A stretch of DNA of 64,000 bases from Clostridiales bacterium Firm_14 (GTDB taxonomy: Bacteria > Bacillota > Clostridia > Saccharofermentanales > Saccharofermentanaceae): contig LVAT01000045.1 in NCBI GenBank assembly GCA_001604135.1, forward strand, positions 62,001-126,000. The letters are read 5' to 3'. Within the stretch, counting starts at the first letter, position 1, and each line of letters starts with the position of its first letter. The translations under genes were made by a program, and so were the position numbers. Shown in pieces: positions 13,353-22,758 of the stretch. The notes beneath the pieces were generated by a model. The model saw only the letters and a list, made by a program, of their open reading frames with translations, was not told the origin of the DNA and made no database searches.

Positions 13353-13748
13353 TCAGAGAAGATCGCTTAATTTCTTACCATACAGATAATCGTGAACGAT
13401 ACCGTCGAACTCTTTCCACATGGGAAGAGTCTCGCATTTTTTGCGCCTCGGACAGTCGTAATTCTTGTCAGCAAGACATGCTACGGAACAGATCGTTCCC
13501 TCGAGAAGCGTGAGTATCTCGCCGACGGTATATTTCTCAGGCTTTTTTACGAGCTTATATCCGCCTCCTTTGCCGCTTAAGCCCTTGATGAGGCCGCCTT
13601 CGACCATCTGCTTTACGATTATCTCCAGATATTTCTTGGAGATCTCCTGGCGCTCTGCTATATCCTTGAGCGGAATATAACTGCCGTCGTCGTTCTGGGC
13701 CAGGTCTATCATTACGCGCAGACCGTATCTTCCTTTGGTTGAGATCAT
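13353..13748 (-). CDS. Rrf2-family transcriptional regulator (IscR/CymR-like)
   Basis: A 131-residue winged-helix repressor. The start at 13748 gives the classic Rrf2 N-terminus MISTKGRYGLRVM; a longer frame adds ten unlikely residues. The dimerisation region carries four cysteines, C87, C91, C99 and C105, a pattern compatible with an Fe-S cluster as in IscR/NsrR, or with direct thiol sensing. The gene is divergent from iscS-iscU and followed by a long run of cysteine and methionine genes. A box ACCTATT-N5-AGTAGGT (13777-13795) overlaps its own -10 (TATAAT on the minus strand, 13781-13786), and the same box recurs at three promoters of that run. It is thus the likely master regulator of the sulfur cluster. 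Whether it senses Fe-S status or cysteine is open. Confidence 0.88.
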   Translation of the reverse strand: MISTKGRYGLRVMIDLAQNDDGSYIPLKDIAERQEISKKYLEIIVKQMVEGGLIKGLSGKGGGYKLVKKPEKYTVGEILTLLEGTICSVACLADKNYDCPRRKKCETLPMWKEFDGIVHDYLYGKKLSDLL

Positions 13749-13776
13749 ATCCTTACACCCCGTTCCTGATATTTTC

Positions 13777-13795
13777 ACCTATTATAACAGTAGGT
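13777..13795 (-). promoter_or_regulatory. Rrf2 box 1 (autoregulatory)
   Basis: ACCTATT-ATAAC-AGTAGGT, a 7-5-7 inverted repeat, overlaps the complement of TATAAT (13781-13786) that is the -10 of the rrf2 gene. It is the same geometry and nearly the same arms as the boxes at 13819, 15473 and 21556. Confidence 0.75.
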
Positions 13796-13818
13796 AATAG
13801 GGCAAATCAATACAATAA

Positions 13819-13852
13819 ACCTATTGACATAGTAGGAAATAGGTATTACCAT
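13819..13852 (+). promoter_or_regulatory. Rrf2 box 2 with iscS promoter
   Basis: ACCTATT-GACAT-AGTAGGA (13819-13837) contains the -35 TTGACA (13824-13829). A weak -10 TACCAT lies 17 bases on (13847-13852). A further half-site AATAGGT is at 13838-13844. The iscS start follows 33 bases downstream. Confidence 0.72.
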
Positions 13853-15083: not shown

Positions 15084-15464
15084 ATGGCTTTATATAGTGA
15101 GAAAGTAATGGATCATTTCAGAAACCCCAGAAACGTCGGCGTGCTTGAGGACGCTAACGGAATAGGTGAAGTCGGCAACGCCAAGTGCGGCGACATCATG
15201 AAGATGTATCTGAAGATCGAAGACGATATCGTAAAGGACGTTAAGTTCGAGACATTCGGCTGCGGCAGTGCTATCGCATCAAGCTCTATGGCAACAGAGC
15301 TCATCAAGGGCAAGCCGGTATCGGAGGCAAGACAGCTCACCAACAAGGCTGTTGCAGAGGCTTTGGACGGCCTTCCGGACTACAAGATGCATTGCTCGGT
15401 CCTGGCCCAGGAAGCAATAGAATCAGCGCTCAAGGACTATGAGAGCAGACAGGAAAAGAAGTAA
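15084..15464 (+). CDS. iscU: Fe-S cluster scaffold protein IscU/NifU N-terminal type
   Basis: A 126-residue scaffold on which Fe-S clusters are built. The three conserved cysteines are C35 (KCGD), C60 (GCGSA) and C104 (HCS), and D37 is the usual cluster-release aspartate. The start at 15084 has GGGAGG eight bases upstream; the longer frame begins inside iscS. No hscA, fdx or iscA gene follows, as is common in Clostridia. Transcription probably ends or is reinitiated at the Rrf2-controlled promoter right after it. Confidence 0.95.
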   Translation: MALYSEKVMDHFRNPRNVGVLEDANGIGEVGNAKCGDIMKMYLKIEDDIVKDVKFETFGCGSAIASSSMATELIKGKPVSEARQLTNKAVAEALDGLPDYKMHCSVLAQEAIESALKDYESRQEKK

Positions 15465-15472
15465 ATTTATAA

Positions 15473-15506
15473 ACCTATTGACATAATAGGTAAGTAGGCG
15501 TAAAAT
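15473..15506 (+). promoter_or_regulatory. Rrf2 box 3 with promoter of the cysteine operon
   Basis: ACCTATT-GACAT-AATAGGT (15473-15491) is a perfect 7-5-7 inverted repeat. It overlaps TTGACA (15478-15483), followed after 17 bases by TAAAAT (15501-15506). The transcript would start near 15513 and carry the Cys-rich leader peptide. Confidence 0.85.
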
Positions 15507-15548
15507 CACTGCCATAAACAAAATCTATATCAGAAGGAGACAGTAATA

Positions 15549-15623
15549 ATGAAGTGCATGTGTTGTTGTATGTCATATAACCGGGCAATGAACTGTTGCT
15601 GTCTTAATTTGATTCGATGTTAA
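15549..15623 (+). CDS. Cys-rich leader peptide, 24 residues (attenuator)
   Basis: A short frame missed by length filters. It starts with ATG, preceded by AAGGAGA at a normal distance, and ends with TAA. Eight of 24 residues are cysteine: C3, C5-C7, C16-C18 and C24, a composition far from chance. Between the two Cys clusters the codons for Arg12-Ala13 contain CCGGGCA, complementary to the 5' arm of the downstream terminator. The peptide itself probably has no function; its translation speed would report charged tRNA-Cys levels. It lies between an Rrf2-controlled promoter and the mccB-like gene. Confidence 0.85.
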   Translation: MKCMCCCMSYNRAMNCCCLNLIRC

Positions 15624-15659
15624 TGGATCATACTGACAATCGCGTTCTTAAATGCCCGG
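15581..15659 (+). promoter_or_regulatory. Candidate antiterminator pairing of the cysteine operon
   Basis: CCGGGCA (15581-15587, inside the leader peptide frame) is the exact complement of TGCCCGG (15653-15659), which forms the 5' arm of the terminator. The two pairings exclude each other. A ribosome stalled on the first Cys cluster (15555-15569) would leave 15581-15587 free to form the antiterminator; one on the second cluster would cover it. Confidence 0.7.
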
Positions 15660-15690
15660 AGCTGAAGTGACAGTTCCGGGCTTCTTTTTT
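15654..15690 (+). terminator. Intrinsic terminator of the cysteine attenuator
   Basis: GCCCGGAGCTG / CAGTTCCGGGC, an 11-bp stem with one G-U pair and a 6-base loop, is followed by CTTCTTTTTT. It lies before, not after, the structural genes, which is the hallmark of an attenuator. Confidence 0.9.
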
Positions 15691-15723: not shown

Positions 15724-16887
15724 ATGAGCAATACAGACGGTCTTAAACTTAATTCACTCCTTATCCACGGCGGTATCGACGGCGATGAGATAACAGGTGC
15801 GGTAAATGTTCCCGTATACCAGACTTCAACTTATAAGCAGGACGGTATCGGCAAGAACAGAGGATGGGAATATTCCAGAACAGGCAACCCCACAAGAGCA
15901 GCTTTAGAAAAGCTTATTGCAGACTTAGAGCAGGGAAAGCACGGACTTGCATTTGCATCAGGTCTTGCAGCTATCAACACAGTCTTATCACTTTTTAAGA
16001 GCGGCGATAAGCTCGTTGTATCAGACAATATCTACGGCGGAACTTTCCGTATACTTGATAACGTTTTCAAGAACTTCAATATTACATACAAGATCGTAAA
16101 TACCTCTGATCTTGAAGCAGTTGAAAGTGCTATCGACGATGACGTAAAAGCTATTTACATTGAGACTCCCGCAAATCCGCTTCTCACGATCACCGACATC
16201 GAAGCAGTATCCAAGATCGCAAAGAAGCACAATAAACTCGTCATCGTCGACAACACTTTCCTTACACCTTATCTGCAGCGTCCTCTTACATTAGGCGCAG
16301 ATATCGTTATCCACAGCGGTACTAAATATTTAGGCGGCCACTCTGATACGATCTCAGGATTTGTAGTAGTTAATGATGATGCTCTGGCTGACCGTCTCTA
16401 CTATCTCCAGAATGCGATCGGCGGCGTTCTCGCACCCTGGGACAGCTTCCTTATCATCAGAGGCATCAAGACGCTTGGCTTGCGCATGGACAGGCATGTT
16501 GCAAACGCCGGCAAGATCGCAAGATGGCTTAATGAAAGTGGCTTTGTTAGCAAGGTCTATTATCCGGGCCTCGAAAACGATCCGGGCTATGAAGTGCAGA
16601 AGAAGCAGGCTGACGGTGCAGGCGCGATGATCTCATTTGTGCTTAAGGATAAATACGACTATAAGAAATTTTTCGAGAACTTAAACCTCATTACTCTTGC
16701 AGAGAGCTTAGGCGGCGTTGAATCGCTCGTATGCCACCCCGCCACGATGACACATGCTGCGATCCCCGCAGATATCAGACGCAAGGTCGGCATAGTAGAT
16801 GAGCTTATCAGATTCTCTGTTGGCATCGAAGATGTTGATGATCTCATCGCAGATCTTAAGCAGGCAATCGAGAATTCGGCAAAGTAA
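15724..16887 (+). CDS. Cystathionine gamma-lyase/gamma-synthase family enzyme (MccB/MetB type)
   Basis: A 387-residue PLP enzyme of the Cys/Met metabolism family. The PLP lysine is K201 in HSGTKYLGGHSD. SLGGVESLVCHPATMTH and the HSD motif are typical of cystathionine gamma-synthase and gamma-lyase. The start at 15724 follows AGAGG; the longer frame runs through the terminator hairpin. Together with the next gene (cysteine-synthase-like, MccA-type length) it could form the reverse transsulfuration pair MccA-MccB, making cysteine from homocysteine. Alternatively the pair makes homocysteine and cysteine by sulfhydrylation. It is the first structural gene after the Cys attenuator. Confidence 0.88.
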   Translation: MSNTDGLKLNSLLIHGGIDGDEITGAVNVPVYQTSTYKQDGIGKNRGWEYSRTGNPTRAALEKLIADLEQGKHGLAFASGLAAINTVLSLFKSGDKLVVSDNIYGGTFRILDNVFKNFNITYKIVNTSDLEAVESAIDDDVKAIYIETPANPLLTITDIEAVSKIAKKHNKLVIVDNTFLTPYLQRPLTLGADIVIHSGTKYLGGHSDTISGFVVVNDDALADRLYYLQNAIGGVLAPWDSFLIIRGIKTLGLRMDRHVANAGKIARWLNESGFVSKVYYPGLENDPGYEVQKKQADGAGAMISFVLKDKYDYKKFFENLNLITLAESLGGVESLVCHPATMTHAAIPADIRRKVGIVDELIRFSVGIEDVDDLIADLKQAIENSAK

Positions 16888-16902
16888 TAAGAGGTGATCA
16901 CC

Positions 16903-17820
16903 ATGAATAATGTATATGAAGATATCAGAAGCATGATCGGCAACACACCGATCCTTAAGATCAACCATATGGGCGTTAAGCCCGGAGTAAATATTTATGC
17001 AAAACTTGAACTTATGAACCCCGCAGGAAGCGTAAAAGACCGTGTAGGCGTCTACATGATCGACGATGCAAAGAAGCGCGGGATCCTGAAAGAAGGCGGC
17101 ACGATAATCGATGCCACGGCAGGCAACACCGGAATAGGGATCGCAGTTGCAGCGCTTAACCAGGGCATCAGGGTCATCTTCACGGTACCTGAGAAATTCT
17201 CCATTGAGAAGCAGCAGGTGATGCGCGCTTTAGGCGCGGAGATAATTCACACATCAAGAGAAGAAGGCATGTTAGGTGCCGAGAGAAAAGCAGAAGAACT
17301 CTTAAAGCAGATCGATGGCTCAGTCTCCTTAAGACAGTTCAGAAATCCTGCAAATCCTCTTGCGCACTATGAGACAACCGGACCTGAGATCTATTCACAG
17401 CTTGACGGCAATATCGATTATTTCGTAGCTGGCGCAGGCAGCGGCGGAACATTCTCAGGCGTTGTTAAGTACCTGAAAGAGCAGAACCCGGATATCACCG
17501 GAGTGCTCGCAGATCCTTACGGATCAACGATCGGAGGCGGAGAGCATTTCGATTACAACATAGAAGGAATAGGCAATGATTTCATCGCTGATACGATGGA
17601 CATCACCCTGGTAGATAAAGTCATCAAAGTAAATGACGACGAAGCATTCGAGATGAGCAGAAGGCTCGCAAAGGAAGAAGGCATCCTTGCAGGATCTTCA
17701 TCGGGCGCAGCACTCACAGCAGCATTCAAACTCGCATCTGAAATAGAGAGCGGAAACATAGTAACTGTTTTCCCTGACAGGGGCGACAGGTATCTTAGCA
17801 AAGGATTATTCGATCAATGA
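16903..17820 (+). CDS. Cysteine synthase / cystathionine beta-synthase family (CysK/MccA type)
   Basis: A 305-residue PLP fold-type II enzyme. The PLP lysine is K45 in PAGSVKDR, with the phosphate-binding and substrate loops TAGNTGIGIA and GSGGTFSG. These enzymes make cysteine from O-acetylserine plus sulfide, or cystathionine from serine/O-acetylserine plus homocysteine. The short length, lack of CBS domains, and position beside an MccB-type gene suggest the MccA role. I chose the ATG at 16903, with AGAGGTGA upstream, over the GTG nine bases earlier. It overlaps metN by four bases (ATGA). Confidence 0.88.
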   Translation: MNNVYEDIRSMIGNTPILKINHMGVKPGVNIYAKLELMNPAGSVKDRVGVYMIDDAKKRGILKEGGTIIDATAGNTGIGIAVAALNQGIRVIFTVPEKFSIEKQQVMRALGAEIIHTSREEGMLGAERKAEELLKQIDGSVSLRQFRNPANPLAHYETTGPEIYSQLDGNIDYFVAGAGSGGTFSGVVKYLKEQNPDITGVLADPYGSTIGGGEHFDYNIEGIGNDFIADTMDITLVDKVIKVNDDEAFEMSRRLAKEEGILAGSSSGAALTAAFKLASEIESGNIVTVFPDRGDRYLSKGLFDQ

Positions 17821-18824
17821 GCAACGTCTTTGAACTGACAAACGTATATAAGACATATAAGAACGACGGCAAGGAATTTGAGGCGTTAAAGGACGTAAGC
17901 CTTGAAGTGCGTGAAGGCGAGATCTTCGGCATCATAGGCATGAGCGGCGCAGGCAAATCAACGCTTGTAAGAACTCTGAACCGCCTTGAGGAAGTAACAT
18001 CCGGCAGCGTTAAGTTCTATGATAAGGATCTCGCGTCATTAAAAGCGCGCGAGCTTCGCGAAGTAAGACACTCCATCTCCATGATCTTTCAGGGGTTCAA
18101 CCTCGTTAACCAGAGAACGGTCCTGTCTAACGCTGAGCAGCCCCTGAAGATCGCGGGAGTACCGCGTAAGGAGCGCAAGGAGAAGGCGCGTCAGATGCTT
18201 GAGATCGTAGGACTTCTTGATAAGCAAGATGTTTTTCCGGCACGCCTTTCCGGCGGCCAGAAGCAGAGAGTCGCGATCGCAAGAGCGCTTGCGGCAGACC
18301 CCAAGGTGCTCTTGTGCGATGAGGCCACGAGCGCATTGGATCCCAAGATCACGGGAGAGATATTGGATCTTCTCAAGAAGATCAATCTCGAGAGGAAGCT
18401 TACGATAGTCATCATCACGCATGAGATGTCTGTGGTAGAGAAGATCTGCGACCGCGTTGCGATCATCGATGACGGCAGTCTTGCAGAAGTAGGCGACGTT
18501 AAGGACGTCTTCTCGAATCCTAAGTCGAATGCAGCGAAAAAGCTCGTCTTCCCGAGCAATCCCTTCGACCCTTCCGATCCTTCGGGCAGGATCGTACGTA
18601 TCGTTTTCGACGGCACGCATTCAAGCGAACCTTTTATCGCAAATCTCGTCGAGAAGACAGGCCTTAAGGTAAACATCTTAAGCGCAAATACAAGAAGTGT
18701 GGGCGGCATCGGCTACGGCCAGATGATCGTCGAGCTCCCTGAATCTTCTGAAGACCAGAAGACCATCATCGACTTCTTCACAGAGGGCGGACTTAACGTA
18801 ACGGAGGTGGAACACCATGAGTGA
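17817..18824 (+). CDS. metN: Methionine ABC transporter ATP-binding protein
   Basis: A 335-residue ABC ATPase. Walker A is GMSGAGKST at residues 41-49, the signature is LSGGQKQR, Walker B is VLLCDEATSALD, and the H-loop lies in ITHEMSVV. The C-terminal ~90 residues form the NIL-type domain characteristic of MetN, which binds methionine and inhibits transport when it is abundant. It overlaps the cysteine-synthase-like gene by four bases and metI by eight. The binding protein metQ is encoded separately at 21.9 kb under its own attenuator. Cystine or methionine could be the physiological substrate. Confidence 0.93.
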   Translation: MSNVFELTNVYKTYKNDGKEFEALKDVSLEVREGEIFGIIGMSGAGKSTLVRTLNRLEEVTSGSVKFYDKDLASLKARELREVRHSISMIFQGFNLVNQRTVLSNAEQPLKIAGVPRKERKEKARQMLEIVGLLDKQDVFPARLSGGQKQRVAIARALAADPKVLLCDEATSALDPKITGEILDLLKKINLERKLTIVIITHEMSVVEKICDRVAIIDDGSLAEVGDVKDVFSNPKSNAAKKLVFPSNPFDPSDPSGRIVRIVFDGTHSSEPFIANLVEKTGLKVNILSANTRSVGGIGYGQMIVELPESSEDQKTIIDFFTEGGLNVTEVEHHE

Positions 18825-19470
18825 ATATATACGACAGGCAATACTGTCGGGCATCCTTGAGACCTTTGAGATGACGTTCTTTGCGTCTTTGTTCTCATAT
18901 ATTGTCGGAATGCCTCTGGGCGTTATCCTCTATGCCACATCCAAGGGACGCCTTCTCGAGAACCGCATCGTAAATGCAGTCATCGGATTTATCGTCAACG
19001 TAACGCGTTCACTGCCGTTCCTGATACTGCTGGTTTTGCTCATTCCGTTTACGCGTTTTGTAGTCGGATCTTCGATCGGCACGGTAGCATCGATCGTGCC
19101 TCTTACGGTAGGCGCGATCCCGATCGTCGCACGAATGGTCGAGTCATCCTTAAATGAAGTAAATCCGGGCATCATCGAGGCAGCAACGTCCATGGGCGCA
19201 TCGCCCGTATACACGATAATACATTTCATCATTCCCGAAGCGACACCTTCGCTTCTTCAGGGCGGCGCGATCAACGTTGCGACAGTTCTCGGATACTCTG
19301 CGATGGCAGGCGTTATCGGCGGCGGTGGCTTGGGAGCGATCGCACTGCAGTACGGATATTACCGTTACCAGAAGGATGTTTTGTGGACCACGGTCACGCT
19401 TCTCATCATCATGGTAATGCTCATTCAGGAGATAGGAATCAGATTGTCGAAGAAAACCAGAAAAGTATAG
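18817..19470 (+). CDS. metI: Methionine ABC transporter permease
   Basis: A 217-residue membrane protein with five or six transmembrane helices. The permease EAA-type loop is EAATSMGASPVYTIIHFIIPEA. Length and motif match MetI. It overlaps metN by eight bases and partners with MetN and the separately encoded MetQ. Confidence 0.93.
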   Translation: MSEYIRQAILSGILETFEMTFFASLFSYIVGMPLGVILYATSKGRLLENRIVNAVIGFIVNVTRSLPFLILLVLLIPFTRFVVGSSIGTVASIVPLTVGAIPIVARMVESSLNEVNPGIIEAATSMGASPVYTIIHFIIPEATPSLLQGGAINVATVLGYSAMAGVIGGGGLGAIALQYGYYRYQKDVLWTTVTLLIIMVMLIQEIGIRLSKKTRKV

Positions 19471-19481
19471 GAGGTTAACAT

Positions 19482-20702
19482 ATGTCATTACATGAAGATA
19501 TCGTTGAATACATCCGCTCAGGCGAGACGGACGGGCAGGCATTGGGACTTGAAGTGGAACACTTCGTCGTGAATGACGAAGGCGTCCAGATAGGGTTCGA
19601 CGAGGTGACGTCGCTTATTAAGCAGGTTGCCGAGAATCTTCAGGCAAAGATAATATACATGGACGGATATCCTGTCGGTTATGTAACCGGCGGGTATTCT
19701 GTTACTTTGGAGCCTGCGTGCCAGTTTGAGATAAGCATCGATCCGAAGGCAGACATCGAATCGATAAAGCAGATCTATAAAGAGTTCCTTTTGTTGTGGA
19801 TCCCTGTTTTCGCGAACTGCGGATATCACATCATAACCAAAGGCAATCTCCCTCTCGTGGAGTCCGGCGTGCTCGATCCTGATGATATCCCGCTGTCTCA
19901 CAAGAAGCGCTACGAATACATGGATGCCTACTTCAGAAACAGCGGCAAATACGGCAAATACATGATGAGAGCATCTTCATCTGTCCAGATATCCGTCGAT
20001 TACAGTTCGGAGGATGATCTCGTGCGTAAGCTCCTCATACTGCAGAAGATCTCACCGGTCCTCATGATCGCCCTTGAGAATAAGTCTTTCGAAGATTCCG
20101 TCATCGAGAAGGGCTCTGATAAGAAGCACCTTCTGAGGATCCAGGAGTGGAACGATCTCGATCCTGCAAGGACCGGATTCTATCCGCACTCATTCGACGC
20201 GGACTTCGGTTACGACAAGATCGCTGACGTAATATCACATACGCCCCTGATCCTTCTTACAGATGACGGCAATACATCTTATGTCGGAAGCGCATCGGCA
20301 TCAGATCTTATCCGCGACGGAATAGTCGGCGAGGATAATGAGAGCCCGCGCAAAGAAAAGCTCATCGAGCATTACATATCGATGGGATTCTTCCATTTCC
20401 GCATCAAGAAATACATCGAGATCAGAGTTGCCGACAGTGTGCCTTTGGACCGCGCGTTGAGCTATGTTGCGCTGATCAAAGGCCTGATATATTCTGATGA
20501 GAATCTCTCTGCGCTCGAGACGGAACTTTCCGGCATCACATCCATTGAACAGATCGAAGATGCGGTCGACAGCATAATTGTCTCAGGCCTTGATGCAAAG
20601 ATCTATGGTGACCGGACGGTCAGAGAGTGGTATAAATATCTGTTGGAACTTGCAAATAATGCGCTTTCCGAAGAGGAGCGGAAATATCTTTTAAATGTGT
20701 GA
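19482..20702 (+). CDS. Glutamate-cysteine ligase family 2 (GshA/EgtA-like)
   Basis: A 406-residue protein of the plant-type glutamate-cysteine ligase family. Visible family features are LGLEVEHFVV near residue 20, TLEPACQFEIS near 85, and MRASSSVQISVDY near 165, which bind ATP-Mg and the amino acid substrates. The expected reaction is ATP-dependent formation of gamma-glutamylcysteine. GGAGG precedes the ATG. It sits in the cysteine operon, 11 bases after metI, and overlaps by eight bases a class II amidotransferase gene, a pair reminiscent of EgtA-EgtC. No glutathione synthetase or ergothioneine genes egtB/egtD are in the window, so the end product is unknown. Confidence 0.85.
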   Translation: MSLHEDIVEYIRSGETDGQALGLEVEHFVVNDEGVQIGFDEVTSLIKQVAENLQAKIIYMDGYPVGYVTGGYSVTLEPACQFEISIDPKADIESIKQIYKEFLLLWIPVFANCGYHIITKGNLPLVESGVLDPDDIPLSHKKRYEYMDAYFRNSGKYGKYMMRASSSVQISVDYSSEDDLVRKLLILQKISPVLMIALENKSFEDSVIEKGSDKKHLLRIQEWNDLDPARTGFYPHSFDADFGYDKIADVISHTPLILLTDDGNTSYVGSASASDLIRDGIVGEDNESPRKEKLIEHYISMGFFHFRIKKYIEIRVADSVPLDRALSYVALIKGLIYSDENLSALETELSGITSIEQIEDAVDSIIVSGLDAKIYGDRTVREWYKYLLELANNALSEEERKYLLNV

Positions 20703-21450
20703 ATTATTCGGAGTAACATCTGACAGGACAATAGATGTATCTGCCGAGCTTAAGGAATTCTTTAAGCACGGTGATACTAATCCCCATGGCTGGGGCATTG
20801 CTTCATGGAATGATGACGGCAAGATCACTATTGATAAAGAACCTGTTGATTCTACGAAGAGTACACTTATCGATTCCTATATCTCTTCCGGCAGGCACTG
20901 CCGCGGCATGATCGCCCACATCAGAAGGGCGACGATCGGATACGTCGACTATAAGAATACGCATCCTTTCATCGCGCACGATCCCAACTGGCGCGAATGG
21001 GTGCTGGCTCATAACGGCACGATATTCGAATCTGATGAACTGCTTCCTTATGCGGATATCCAAAGCGGTGCAACGGACAGTGAGAGGATTTTGCTCTATA
21101 TCCTTGATAAGAACAAGGGCGTCAGGGGTGAAGAAGCGCGCTTCCGCGTAATCGATTCCGTTGCCGTTAAGCTTTCAGATAAGAACAAACTGAACTTCGT
21201 TGTATTTGACGGACAGGATCTCTATGTCCATAAGAATGAAGCAGGAACGATGTTCAGAAAGGTATGTGACGGATATGCCCTGATCGCAACAAAGCCTCTG
21301 GATGACGGGGTTTGGGAAGAGGTTCCTCTTAACAGGCTTCAGGTCTACAGGGATGGAAAGCTCATCTGGGAAGGTACGCAGCACGACCACACTTATGTCC
21401 ACGATGAAGAGCAGATGAACATGCTCTATCTTGGGTATTCAGAGCTCTGA
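20695..21450 (+). CDS. Class II glutamine amidotransferase family protein (YafJ/EgtC-like)
   Basis: A 251-residue Ntn-hydrolase. After removal of Met1 the nucleophile would be C2 (MCELFGV). RRATIGYVDYKNTHPF and LAHNGTI are the typical substrate-pocket motifs. Members include EgtC, which removes glutamate from a gamma-glutamyl-cysteinyl intermediate, and YafJ of unknown role. It overlaps the glutamate-cysteine ligase-like gene by eight bases at the end of the six-gene cysteine operon. A role in cleaving gamma-glutamyl amides made by that ligase is inferred from this pairing. Confidence 0.82.
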   Translation: MCELFGVTSDRTIDVSAELKEFFKHGDTNPHGWGIASWNDDGKITIDKEPVDSTKSTLIDSYISSGRHCRGMIAHIRRATIGYVDYKNTHPFIAHDPNWREWVLAHNGTIFESDELLPYADIQSGATDSERILLYILDKNKGVRGEEARFRVIDSVAVKLSDKNKLNFVVFDGQDLYVHKNEAGTMFRKVCDGYALIATKPLDDGVWEEVPLNRLQVYRDGKLIWEGTQHDHTYVHDEEQMNMLYLGYSEL

Positions 21451-21555: not shown

Positions 21556-21589
21556 ACCTATTGACATAGTAGGTAAGTACCGATATACT
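21556..21589 (+). promoter_or_regulatory. Rrf2 box 4 with metQ promoter
   Basis: ACCTATT-GACAT-AGTAGGT (21556-21574) overlaps TTGACA (21561-21566). TATACT (21584-21589) follows after exactly 17 bases. The operator covers the -35 and spacer, as at the cysteine operon promoter. Confidence 0.85.
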
Positions 21590-21620
21590 TACACCATCAA
21601 CTCGAAAGGAGGCGTGAACA

Positions 21621-21743
21621 ATGTATAACCAGATAACGATCACTACAAACAGCATGATGTGTTGTCGAATGCTTAGCTCCCGGGCACGCAAGATGGCCAC
21701 GGCGATGAGCTCTGACGCTTCACGCCTTGCAAAACGATGTTGA
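21621..21743 (+). CDS. Met/Cys-containing leader peptide, 40 residues (attenuator)
   Basis: A short frame starting with ATG after AAAGGAGG and ending in TGA. Residues 12-17 read MMCCRM and the last residue is Cys; in all six Met and three Cys occur in 40 residues. Codons 19-23 contain CTCCCGGGCAC, complementary over 11 bases to the 5' arm of the terminator downstream. Position, ribosome binding site and architecture match the Cys-rich leader at 15549, so I read it as the second member of the same control type. Stalling at the Met-Met-Cys-Cys run would report methionine and cysteine supply. Confidence 0.78.
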   Translation: MYNQITITTNSMMCCRMLSSRARKMATAMSSDASRLAKRC

Positions 21744-21781
21744 TGCTTTGATACGCATATAACATGCCATGTGCCCGGGAG
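21677..21781 (+). promoter_or_regulatory. Candidate antiterminator pairing upstream of metQ
   Basis: CTCCCGGGCAC (21677-21687) is the exact complement of GTGCCCGGGAG (21771-21781). Pairing can be extended by ATGGC (21693-21697) with GCCAT (21766-21770). It competes with the terminator, whose 5' arm is 21773-21779. Confidence 0.72.
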
Positions 21782-21805
21782 TTAAATATAACACCCGGGC
21801 TTTTT
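21773..21805 (+). terminator. Intrinsic terminator of the metQ attenuator
   Basis: GCCCGGG (21773-21779) pairs with CCCGGGC (21794-21800), extended inside by GTT/AAC across one mismatch, and is followed by TTTTT. It lies 68 bases before the metQ start. Confidence 0.9.
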
Positions 21806-21873: not shown

Positions 21874-22758
21874 ATGAAAGCCAACATTCTTAAAAGAGTA
21901 ATCGCATCTGCACTTTTACTTACAGTTACAGCATCTTTTGCAGCATGCGGCAAGACAGAGAGCACAACGGCAACAACAGCTGCGGCAGGAAGCGACACAC
22001 AGTCCGAAGCTAACGCAGACGTACAGGCTAACGTAGTCCTCAAGGTAGGCGCAAACATCACACCTCACTCAGAGATCTTAGAGATCGCAAAGCCGATCCT
22101 CGCAGAGCAGGGAATCACACTTGAGATCGTAAAGCTTGAAGATTCCATCACACCTAACACAGGCGTAATCGAGGGAAGCCTTGATGCAAACTATTTCCAG
22201 CATGTTCCTTACCTCGAGCAGTTCAACAAAGAGAACAACTCAACACTCGTTTCAGTAGGCGCAGTTCACTATGAACCCTTCGGCATCTACGCAGGCAAGA
22301 CAAAGGACCTCAAGGACCTTCCGGACGGCGCAACAGTTGCAGTTCCGAACAACGTAACAAACGAAGCAAGAGCACTTTTGCTCCTCGCACAGGAAGGCAT
22401 CATCAAGCTTAAGGACGACGCAGGCATCAACGCAACAGTAGAAGACATCACAGAGAACCCCAAGAATATCAAGTTCAAGGAGCTTGCACCCGAGCAGCTC
22501 GTAGCAGCACTTCCTGACGTAGACGTAGCAGTCATCAACGGCAACTATGCGATCGAAGGCGGCCTCCACGTAAGCCAGGCTCTCGCAGTAGAAGCAAATG
22601 ACGGCCTCGCAGCACAGACATACGGCAACATCATCGCAACATCCGCAGAGAAGGCTAACGATCCTGCGATCAAGAAGCTCGTTGAAGTACTCCAGGGACC
22701 TGAAGTTTCCAAGTACATCAAGGAAACATACGACGGCGCAGTCGTTCCCCTTTTCTGA
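21874..22758 (+). CDS. metQ: MetQ/NlpA-family substrate-binding lipoprotein
   Basis: A 294-residue lipoprotein. The signal peptide ends in FAAC with the lipidated cysteine at residue 25. The mature part matches the NlpA/MetQ family: VKLEDSITPNTGVIEGSLDANYFQHVPYLEQFN and the later AVINGNYAIEGG. It delivers methionine (or cystine) to MetN-MetI, encoded 2.4 kb upstream. AAAGGAGA precedes the ATG. It has its own Rrf2-box promoter and leader-peptide attenuator, so it can be made in excess of the membrane components. Confidence 0.92.
   Translation: MKANILKRVIASALLLTVTASFAACGKTESTTATTAAAGSDTQSEANADVQANVVLKVGANITPHSEILEIAKPILAEQGITLEIVKLEDSITPNTGVIEGSLDANYFQHVPYLEQFNKENNSTLVSVGAVHYEPFGIYAGKTKDLKDLPDGATVAVPNNVTNEARALLLLAQEGIIKLKDDAGINATVEDITENPKNIKFKELAPEQLVAALPDVDVAVINGNYAIEGGLHVSQALAVEANDGLAAQTYGNIIATSAEKANDPAIKKLVEVLQGPEVSKYIKETYDGAVVPLF

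Follow-up and report, generated by a model that had tools for sequence, protein, structure and literature searches.

The leader in front of a cysteine/methionine operon of Clostridiales bacterium Firm_14 is probably a ribosome-mediated transcription attenuator responsive to charged tRNA-Cys, situated downstream of an Rrf2-type promoter; judged from sequence comparison and computed folds, we put the probability of this reading at about 0.84. It lies in a window of 64,000 nucleotides (contig LVAT01000045.1, positions 62,001 to 126,000), the whole stretch of DNA analyzed here, to which all plain coordinates refer. Translation-coupled attenuation by charged tRNA-Cys had been put forward for this leader in a first-pass annotation, and it is supported by Cys codons kept in 59 of 60 assessable cystathionine-lyase leaders and by covariation in the wider family. 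As in leader-peptide attenuators, tandem codons for the amino acid of the operon stand in a short open reading frame (ORF) preceded by a Shine-Dalgarno (SD) sequence, and in the computed geometry a stalled ribosome leaves the antiterminator arm free.

Leader, promoter and operon of the first copy

The first copy and its operon comprise the following features:

13353-13778, minus strand: Rrf2-family regulator, candidate operator-binding protein, divergent from iscS (TIGR00738, above cut-off)
15473-15491, plus strand: predicted Rrf2-type operator ACCTATTGACATAATAGGT, overlapping the -35 element
15478-15483, plus strand: promoter -35 element TTGACA (chosen by eye, letters checked)
15501-15506, plus strand: promoter -10 element TAAAAT (chosen by eye, letters checked; spacer 17 nt)
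15534-15539, plus strand: leader SD sequence AAGGAG (letters checked)
15537-15546, plus strand: helix arm A (GAGACAGTAA), within the SD region 15534-15546; covaries with arm D
15549-15623, plus strand: leader peptide ORF MKCMCCCMSYNRAMNCCCLNLIRC, ATG at 15549, TAA stop at 15621-15623, 24 codons
15561-15569, plus strand: proposed sensor Cys codons TGT TGT TGT (core kept in relatives; spacing to arm C)
15581-15587, plus strand: antiterminator 5' arm C (CCGGGCA), from the fold and C:F covariation
15596-15605, plus strand: arm D (TTGCTGTCTT), partner of the SD region, overlapping the second Cys cluster
15610-15630, plus strand: small hairpin over the leader stop codon (UGAUUC/GGAUCA), inside the antiterminator
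15653-15664, plus strand: arm F (antiterminator 3' arm 15653-15659; terminator 5' arm 15654-15664)
15671-15690, plus strand: arm G (terminator 3' arm 15671-15681, then a T-rich tail)
15724-16887, plus strand: cystathionine gamma-lyase/synthase-type PLP enzyme, first controlled gene (best NCBIfam model PRK07671, E 8e-167, below the equivalog cut-off)
16894-17820, plus strand: cysteine synthase family (cysKM) enzyme (TIGR01136, E 9e-103, 343.7 bits, cut-off 344.15)
17817-18824, plus strand: MetN-like ABC ATPase (best model TIGR02314, below cut-off)
18817-19470, plus strand: MetI-like permease (NF008049, above cut-off)

The 24-residue frame with eight Cys codons between a promoter and an intrinsic terminator, as first annotated, is borne out; the SD sequence AAGGAG precedes it. 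Finding at least eight Cys in the 23 codons after the start has P 2e-10 at the Cys frequency of the window's genes (1.2%) and P 4e-5 even with the frequency set at 6%. Among 178 SD-preceded short ORFs of the window the leader is the richest in Cys, the runner-up having 6. The eight codons are not equally conserved: only UGU-UGU at 15561-15566 is near universal, and the second cluster (15594-15602) is found neither in the window's second copy nor in many other leaders. The second cluster overlaps the SD-region helix (15537-15546 with 15596-15605); this overlap with arm D in the first copy explains how the second copy, with a D arm of different sequence, can do without the cluster.

CCGGGCA at 15581-15587 is indeed the exact complement of 15653-15659. 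The concern that the antiterminator is only 7 bp did not hold, because it is extended by further short helices to -25.3 kcal/mol in all (computed for free RNA from 15579 on, before synthesis of the terminator 3' arm). The 181-nt region is more stable than all 200 shuffles (z -3.8), and the stop-codon hairpin has 90.6% of its cells paired in 16 relatives. Unmasked and at full length, the first copy folds into A:D plus the terminator. With 15579 onward free in the full-length RNA the terminator is also preferred, and therefore the antiterminator of this copy must act in time. No match to Rfam, including T-box and SAM models, was found in the window at the gathering score; the five T-box matches of the genome and its two SAM-riboswitch matches are on other contigs or well away from the leader sites.

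Upstream of the leader, the Rrf2-family gene is divergent from iscS-iscU, and iscU ends at 15464. The operon also encodes, at 19482-21450, a glutamate-cysteine ligase-like protein and a weakly EgtC-like protein (class II glutamine amidotransferase); these are followed by a second leader and a MetQ-type lipoprotein gene.

The candidate Rrf2 target sequence at the promoter can be written as ACCTATTGACATAGTAGGT. Five sites of the ACCTATTGACATAATAGGT type (up to 3 mismatches) occur in the genome, and the reversed pattern gave 0. Four of the five are followed by a Cys-codon leader (the first copy, window 21556, G000:C20:31397 and G000:C45:22108); at the fifth, which belongs to iscS (window 13819), a Cys-codon leader was looked for and none was seen. 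Among distinct elements with at least 115 nt upstream, 155 of 167 have an operator-like site on their 5' side. The regulator at 13353-13778 passes the Rrf2 superfamily model only: it scored 96.5 bits against the CymR model NF047409 (cut-off 195) and fell under the cut-off of the IscR model. Two operator-like repeats (13777-13837) lie between the divergent Rrf2 gene and iscS and suggest that the Rrf2 gene is autoregulated.

A second copy and further copies in the genome

A complete second copy stands before metQ (21556-21805). Its leader is longer and lacks the second Cys cluster:

21556-21574, plus strand: predicted operator (-35 at 21561-21566, -10 at 21584-21589)
21609-21618, plus strand: arm A (GAGGCGTGAA), overlapping the SD sequence AAAGGAGG at 21605-21612
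21621-21743, plus strand: second leader peptide MYNQITITTNSMMCCRMLSSRARKMATAMSSDASRLAKRC, TGT TGT at 21660-21665
21677-21686, plus strand: arm C (CTCCCGGGCA), from the fold
21719-21728, plus strand: arm D (TTCACGCCTT), from the fold
21772-21805, plus strand: arm F (TGCCCGGGAG from 21772) and terminator, T-run at 21801-21805
21874-22758, plus strand: MetQ/NlpA-type lipoprotein, gene of the second copy (TIGR00363, E 3e-49, below cut-off)

Folded at full length and free of ribosomes, this copy adopts the antiterminator as its lowest-energy structure, and termination there must therefore rely on folding order or on passage of the ribosome. The copy at G000:C20:31397 precedes a Cys/Met PLP enzyme. 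A diverged Cys leader, MNSITTTTMYHKCCFEVTLPRMTGIC, with the same operator (L002:1507-1760, G000:C45 from 22108) precedes the S component of an ECF transporter (PF07155). In another genome (G042, locus L325) a protein similar by eye to that S component is encoded just before a cystathionine-lyase gene, a neighborhood which suggests that its substrate is a sulfur compound.

Relatives within the family

With the leader as query, BLAST matched 23 of the 115 family genomes; the weakest matches (L024-L027 at the least) resemble chance hits. We read 19 leaders, counting the window's own: 18 have a Cys-rich peptide, and one (L020, genome G077) has its frame broken by a 4-base deletion. Apart from this broken leader, insertions in the 5' part among close relatives have lengths divisible by three. 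We built a covariance model from 16 of the leaders; among the matches listed, it had hits in 80 of the 115 family genomes at E 0.1, not all of them true. Searched across the order, it matched two genera only, both in the window's family (71/188 genomes, E 0.01). We examined 113 records (100 fetched matches, 11 model-match loci and the two window copies), with some weaker model matches, including antisense matches to leaders, set aside. An ORF with Cys-Cys is present in 105 records; the other eight comprise two real elements with one core Cys (L121 and L141) and six judged false. Leaders of this kind were read in 72 of the 115 family genomes.

The leader core is M-C-C-R-M-x-x-x-R-A. The core Cys pair is written TGT TGT in every one of 100 distinct leaders, and the codon after the pair is CGA in 91 of them (e.g., window 21660-21671), figures that are partly ascertained since the search model and the pattern contain the core. 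The last two leader codons are CGA in 74 and TGT in 79 of the 100. In the 43 ORFs of the window, TGT makes up 30% of Cys codons, and CGA is the rarest Arg codon at 1.9%. Total Cys is 3-5 in 97 of 105 leaders. Assigned by signature strings, the targets of the 105 leaders are 49 MetQ-like proteins, 34 cystathionine lyases and 14 other Cys/Met PLP enzymes; the rest are one MetN, one contig end with a MetQ-type promoter, four LysR regulators and two leaders near alcohol-dehydrogenase-like genes. About 98-99 of 105 leaders thus have Cys/Met-gene targets by signature strings, and most target genes identified serve cysteine/methionine metabolism.

A gene-first search with the first downstream enzyme, which is free of the core-model bias, returned 66 genes in 64 of the 115 genomes. 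By coordinates and among the matches listed, 51 of these cystathionine-lyase genes have a model match directly upstream, and those leaders carry CC. Among the other 15, a CC leader with a terminator after it stands before eight genes, and the leader of one (G085) contains a single Cys; three were left out as unassessable (G043, contig end; G086, matched from residue 29; G034, incomplete upstream) and three as lying, by eye, inside operons (G030, G042, G011). Homologous leaders thus conserve Cys codons, as had been expected, with tandem Cys in 59 of 60 assessable cystathionine-lyase leaders. TGC occurs inside the Cys run of some leaders found in this way (G108, G047). Some of these leaders are diverged enough for the model to have missed them, and the most diverged (G047, G093) still fold in alternative ways.

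Two other loci are of note. At L022 (G036:C120) a Cys/Met PLP enzyme is preceded by another short leader, MLQYIIRHNYRNGRMCRSCCRIS, which has a similar operator and, by eye, no terminator; it is possibly another mode of control. In L183, the leader core is matched twice on one contig, at a distance of 127 bases, ahead of a Cys/Met-type PLP enzyme.

Five leader peptides were compared with Pfam and NCBIfam and no model matched, apart from one meaningless match at E 0.49; seven related loci searched against Rfam at E 0.1 gave no match. Among the leaders and loci searched, the family is a covarying leader that matches no Rfam, Pfam or NCBIfam model.

Covariation of the helix arms

We compared the duplex energy of each element's own arms with that of arms swapped between elements, using non-redundant sets and 20,000 permutations. 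In the wide set (65 non-redundant elements, reduced from 178) the z scores were -8.8 for A:D, -6.3 for C:F and -12.6 for F:G, and in 24 elements of the family they were -7.4, -5.0 and -7.1, respectively; for each pair in each set, 0 of 20,000 permutations were as good. The control pairs showed no gain, either in the 65 elements (A:C, A:F, D:F, K5:D, M:D and K5:Fp; the closest was M:D, z -1.3) or in the 24 (A:C, A:F, D:F and D:C). Counted in a fixed register, all 10 positions of C:F are paired in 45 of 65 elements (z 8.6; z 5.8 in 25 elements of the family only), and changes on both sides occur at several positions (CGGGCA/UGCCCG, CGGGCU/AGCCCG, CGGACA/UGUCCG). A strict ungapped count of A:D gave z 6.9 overall and z 3.5 (6/20,000) in 40 elements from outside the family; it was significant alone in 20 of 65 elements, and its search stretch misses D in window-type copies.

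Antiterminator and terminator had been described as mutually exclusive, and this is confirmed in that C:F and F:G share arm F and both covary. The predicted covariation of antiterminator and terminator arms appears in the wider family (C:F and F:G) but not in the 16 close relatives, whose core is near-invariant. In these 16 leaders the column covariation score was reached by 263 of 500 shuffles, and by 199 of 500 in a second run, because most pairs do not vary; the sole both-sided A:D change among them comes from G041 (L023).

Other helices were considered and dropped. Pairing of the core CGAAUGC with a downstream GCGUUCG (K5:K3) did not covary (z 0.4), and many family members, by eye, keep the core without the partner; as a cause of the invariant CGA it was rejected. 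A K3:D result was an overlap artifact and was set aside. An extension of the antiterminator, AUGGC:GCCAU, is visible in many elements, and its test was not significant (M:Fp z -1.4).

Spread beyond the family

One scan of genome contigs with the pattern TGTTGTCGAATGN9CGGGC found at least 120 stretches. Of 80 listed, 65 look real by eye and 15 were called chance, the latter lacking an SD sequence, terminator or operator and coming mostly from other phyla; 58 of the 65 pass a start-and-terminator filter and seven fail. The real-looking matches listed are mostly from rumen and gut Clostridia that depositors named Lachnospiraceae, Ruminococcaceae, Oscillospiraceae, Christensenellaceae or Saccharofermentans, and they include Butyrivibrio proteoclasticus P6B7 and Lachnospiraceae bacterium AC2029; the record names are often those of metagenome-assembled genomes, and some bins may be mixed (one Aeromonadales and one Eggerthellaceae record). 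Targets checked there included an OAH/OAS sulfhydrylase, a cysteine synthase-type PALP enzyme, an NlpA lipoprotein, an amino-acid-type ABC permease, an SDF-family symporter and an M20 peptidase.

A class-wide pattern allowing synonymous codons matched 31 of 391 genomes, mainly by chance. Eight of its loci outside the window's family were read and three were judged real (L290-L292); the remaining matches were judged from the matched letters alone. The distribution is patchy: a core pattern matched 4 of the 148 genomes in family f62, and in family f32 it matched 1 of 9. Within f62, L290, L291 and L314 are real and L313 lies inside a gene. L290 and L291 (G325 and G543) have no Rrf2 operator and carry another inverted repeat, ACTCCCCGTTTGGGAGT, at the promoter, and their first core Cys codon is TGC; L314 has an Rrf2-type operator. 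The leader had been thought unusual and maybe undescribed: we found no account of it in the literature, but it belongs to a widespread family and is not a single oddity.

Proposed mechanism and alternatives

When cysteine is plentiful, the ribosome would run through the leader and A:D would close behind it, hindering re-initiation; C would be buried in the A:D hairpin, F would pair with G and transcription would stop. When Cys-tRNA is short, the ribosome would stall at UGU-UGU, covering A and exposing C just ahead; C would capture F as it emerges, the terminator would be blocked and the operon transcribed. The terminal Cys codon of most family leaders could act likewise by covering D, which is more speculative.

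The best partner for C, searched within a 45-nt stretch, begins 9-18 nt (mode 13-14) downstream of the second TGT, counted from its first base; this holds for 109 of 113 elements. With the second TGT in the A site, the edge of a ribosome footprint should fall about where C begins. From this spacing, a ribosome waiting at the second Cys codon should therefore cover A and leave C open. In stall-masked folds of both window copies, the antiterminator C:F forms before the terminator 3' arm is made. It also forms in both copies with the ribosome masked at the stop codon (release unmodeled), so that the off state would rest on A:D re-forming after release.

Some observations strain the attenuator reading. 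In the first copy, a ribosome stalled at the second Cys cluster would mask C and so favor termination, which counts against this reading. The tandem Cys codons have exceptions (the one-Cys leader of G085 and the single-Cys cores of L121 and L141), and the four LysR regulators and two alcohol-dehydrogenase-like genes have no plain link to sulfur. Starvation alone does not account for the near-invariant CGA that follows the Cys codons. We offer tentatively, as possible and rather unlikely in this full form, that the elements are an undescribed, broadly distributed class of cysteine attenuators of Clostridia whose sensing goes beyond simple codon starvation, in which UGU-UGU-CGA-AUG is a slow site that times the ribosome, and in which the SD/anti-SD helix allows about one Cys-tRNA reading per transcript. 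The slow site would set the rarest Arg codon beside a minor Cys codon, and most family leaders have a second such site, CGA-UGU-stop.

The near-invariant core could also be read as a peptide signal. TnaC is a nascent chain that arrests the ribosome in response to tryptophan, and an MCCR(M) peptide might likewise stall it on free cysteine or a sulfur metabolite, independently of tRNA charging. The residues MCCRM are conserved together, and in 91 of 100 leaders the Arg among them is written with the rarest Arg codon, CGA. We nevertheless consider arrest improbable: the codons themselves are near-invariant, which amino-acid constraint alone does not predict, the residues before the core vary from 3 to 15, CCC and single-Cys variants occur, and an arrest triggered by abundant cysteine would regulate the genes of biosynthesis and uptake in the wrong direction. 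A structured RNA, either a riboswitch or a protein-binding leader, with the Cys-rich frame playing no part in control, would account for the strong covarying helices; it is very unlikely, given that the Cys codons persist in strongly diverged RNA (L326, L328), that insertions in close relatives keep the frame (L020 excepted), and that Rfam matched neither the window (gathering score) nor seven related loci (E 0.1).

We give still less credit to a Cys-rich peptide acting in trans, for example in metal binding or as a small regulatory protein, an idea favored by the first copy with its eight Cys among 24 residues: 97 of 105 leaders have only 3-5 Cys, much of the peptide is free to vary, and the conserved RA codons coincide with arm C. 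That the terminator just ends the iscS-iscU transcript, with the Cys frame due to chance and the Rrf2 promoter as sole control, is hardly credible. The end of iscU just upstream (15464) fits this explanation, but the unit recurs without a preceding iscU in the same genome (21556-21805; G000:C20) and in other families of Clostridia, and its arms covary.

Relation to known systems and significance

The classical leader-peptide attenuators are those of the trp, his and leu operons of Proteobacteria. Like them, the elements described here have control codons in a leader ORF and an antiterminator and terminator that exclude each other, and they lack a dedicated sensor RNA or protein. They differ in responding, as proposed, to cysteine, in occurring in Clostridia, in the pairing of the leader's own SD sequence with a downstream arm as an anti-antiterminator hairpin, in the Rrf2-type operator of most members and in the UGU UGU CGA core before different targets. 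T-box and SAM riboswitches of Firmicutes control sulfur and amino-acid genes by premature termination as well; unlike them, the leader has no Rfam match in the window.

Outside Proteobacteria and Actinobacteria, leader-peptide systems had, to the knowledge of the authors, not been shown before their report of His leader peptides in Bacilli (Naville and Gautheret, 2010; PMC2965389). For cysteine, the uORFC-8-2 motif before cysS in Rhodobacterales, as described in its report, has the same tandem Cys codons, two stems, intrinsic terminator and presumed tRNA-Cys attenuation (PMC8632094). By that description it is confined to Alphaproteobacteria and cysS, its Cys codons are usually at 14-15 and UGC dominates, whereas the elements of Clostridia use UGU, precede sulfur assimilation and uptake genes and have an SD-sequestering helix. 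No cysS was found among the identified targets, and the positions of the Cys codons differ. Cysteine-responsive polycysteine leaderless uORFs are known in mycobacteria (Canestrari et al., 2020, as cited in PMC13236596 and PMC9094748), and Cys leaders were predicted in Actinobacteria in a report that found no conserved terminator hairpin there (PMC1262725). They too are Cys-codon leaders before cysteine operons; unlike the leaderless mycobacterial ones, the elements of Clostridia are SD-led and have an intrinsic terminator/antiterminator pair. Our search, mainly of open literature in which absence is not proof, turned up Cys attenuators in Rhodobacterales and Actinobacteria and none for Clostridia. 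We concluded that the kind of element, a leader-peptide attenuator, is already known and that the cysteine family of Clostridia is without an account found in the literature.

The family would add a covarying SD/anti-SD switch to the repertoire of attenuators and would provide a signature for annotating cysteine and methionine uptake and synthesis genes, including an ECF transporter. As the genome also has T-boxes, it would represent a second sensor of tRNA charging where T-boxes are common.
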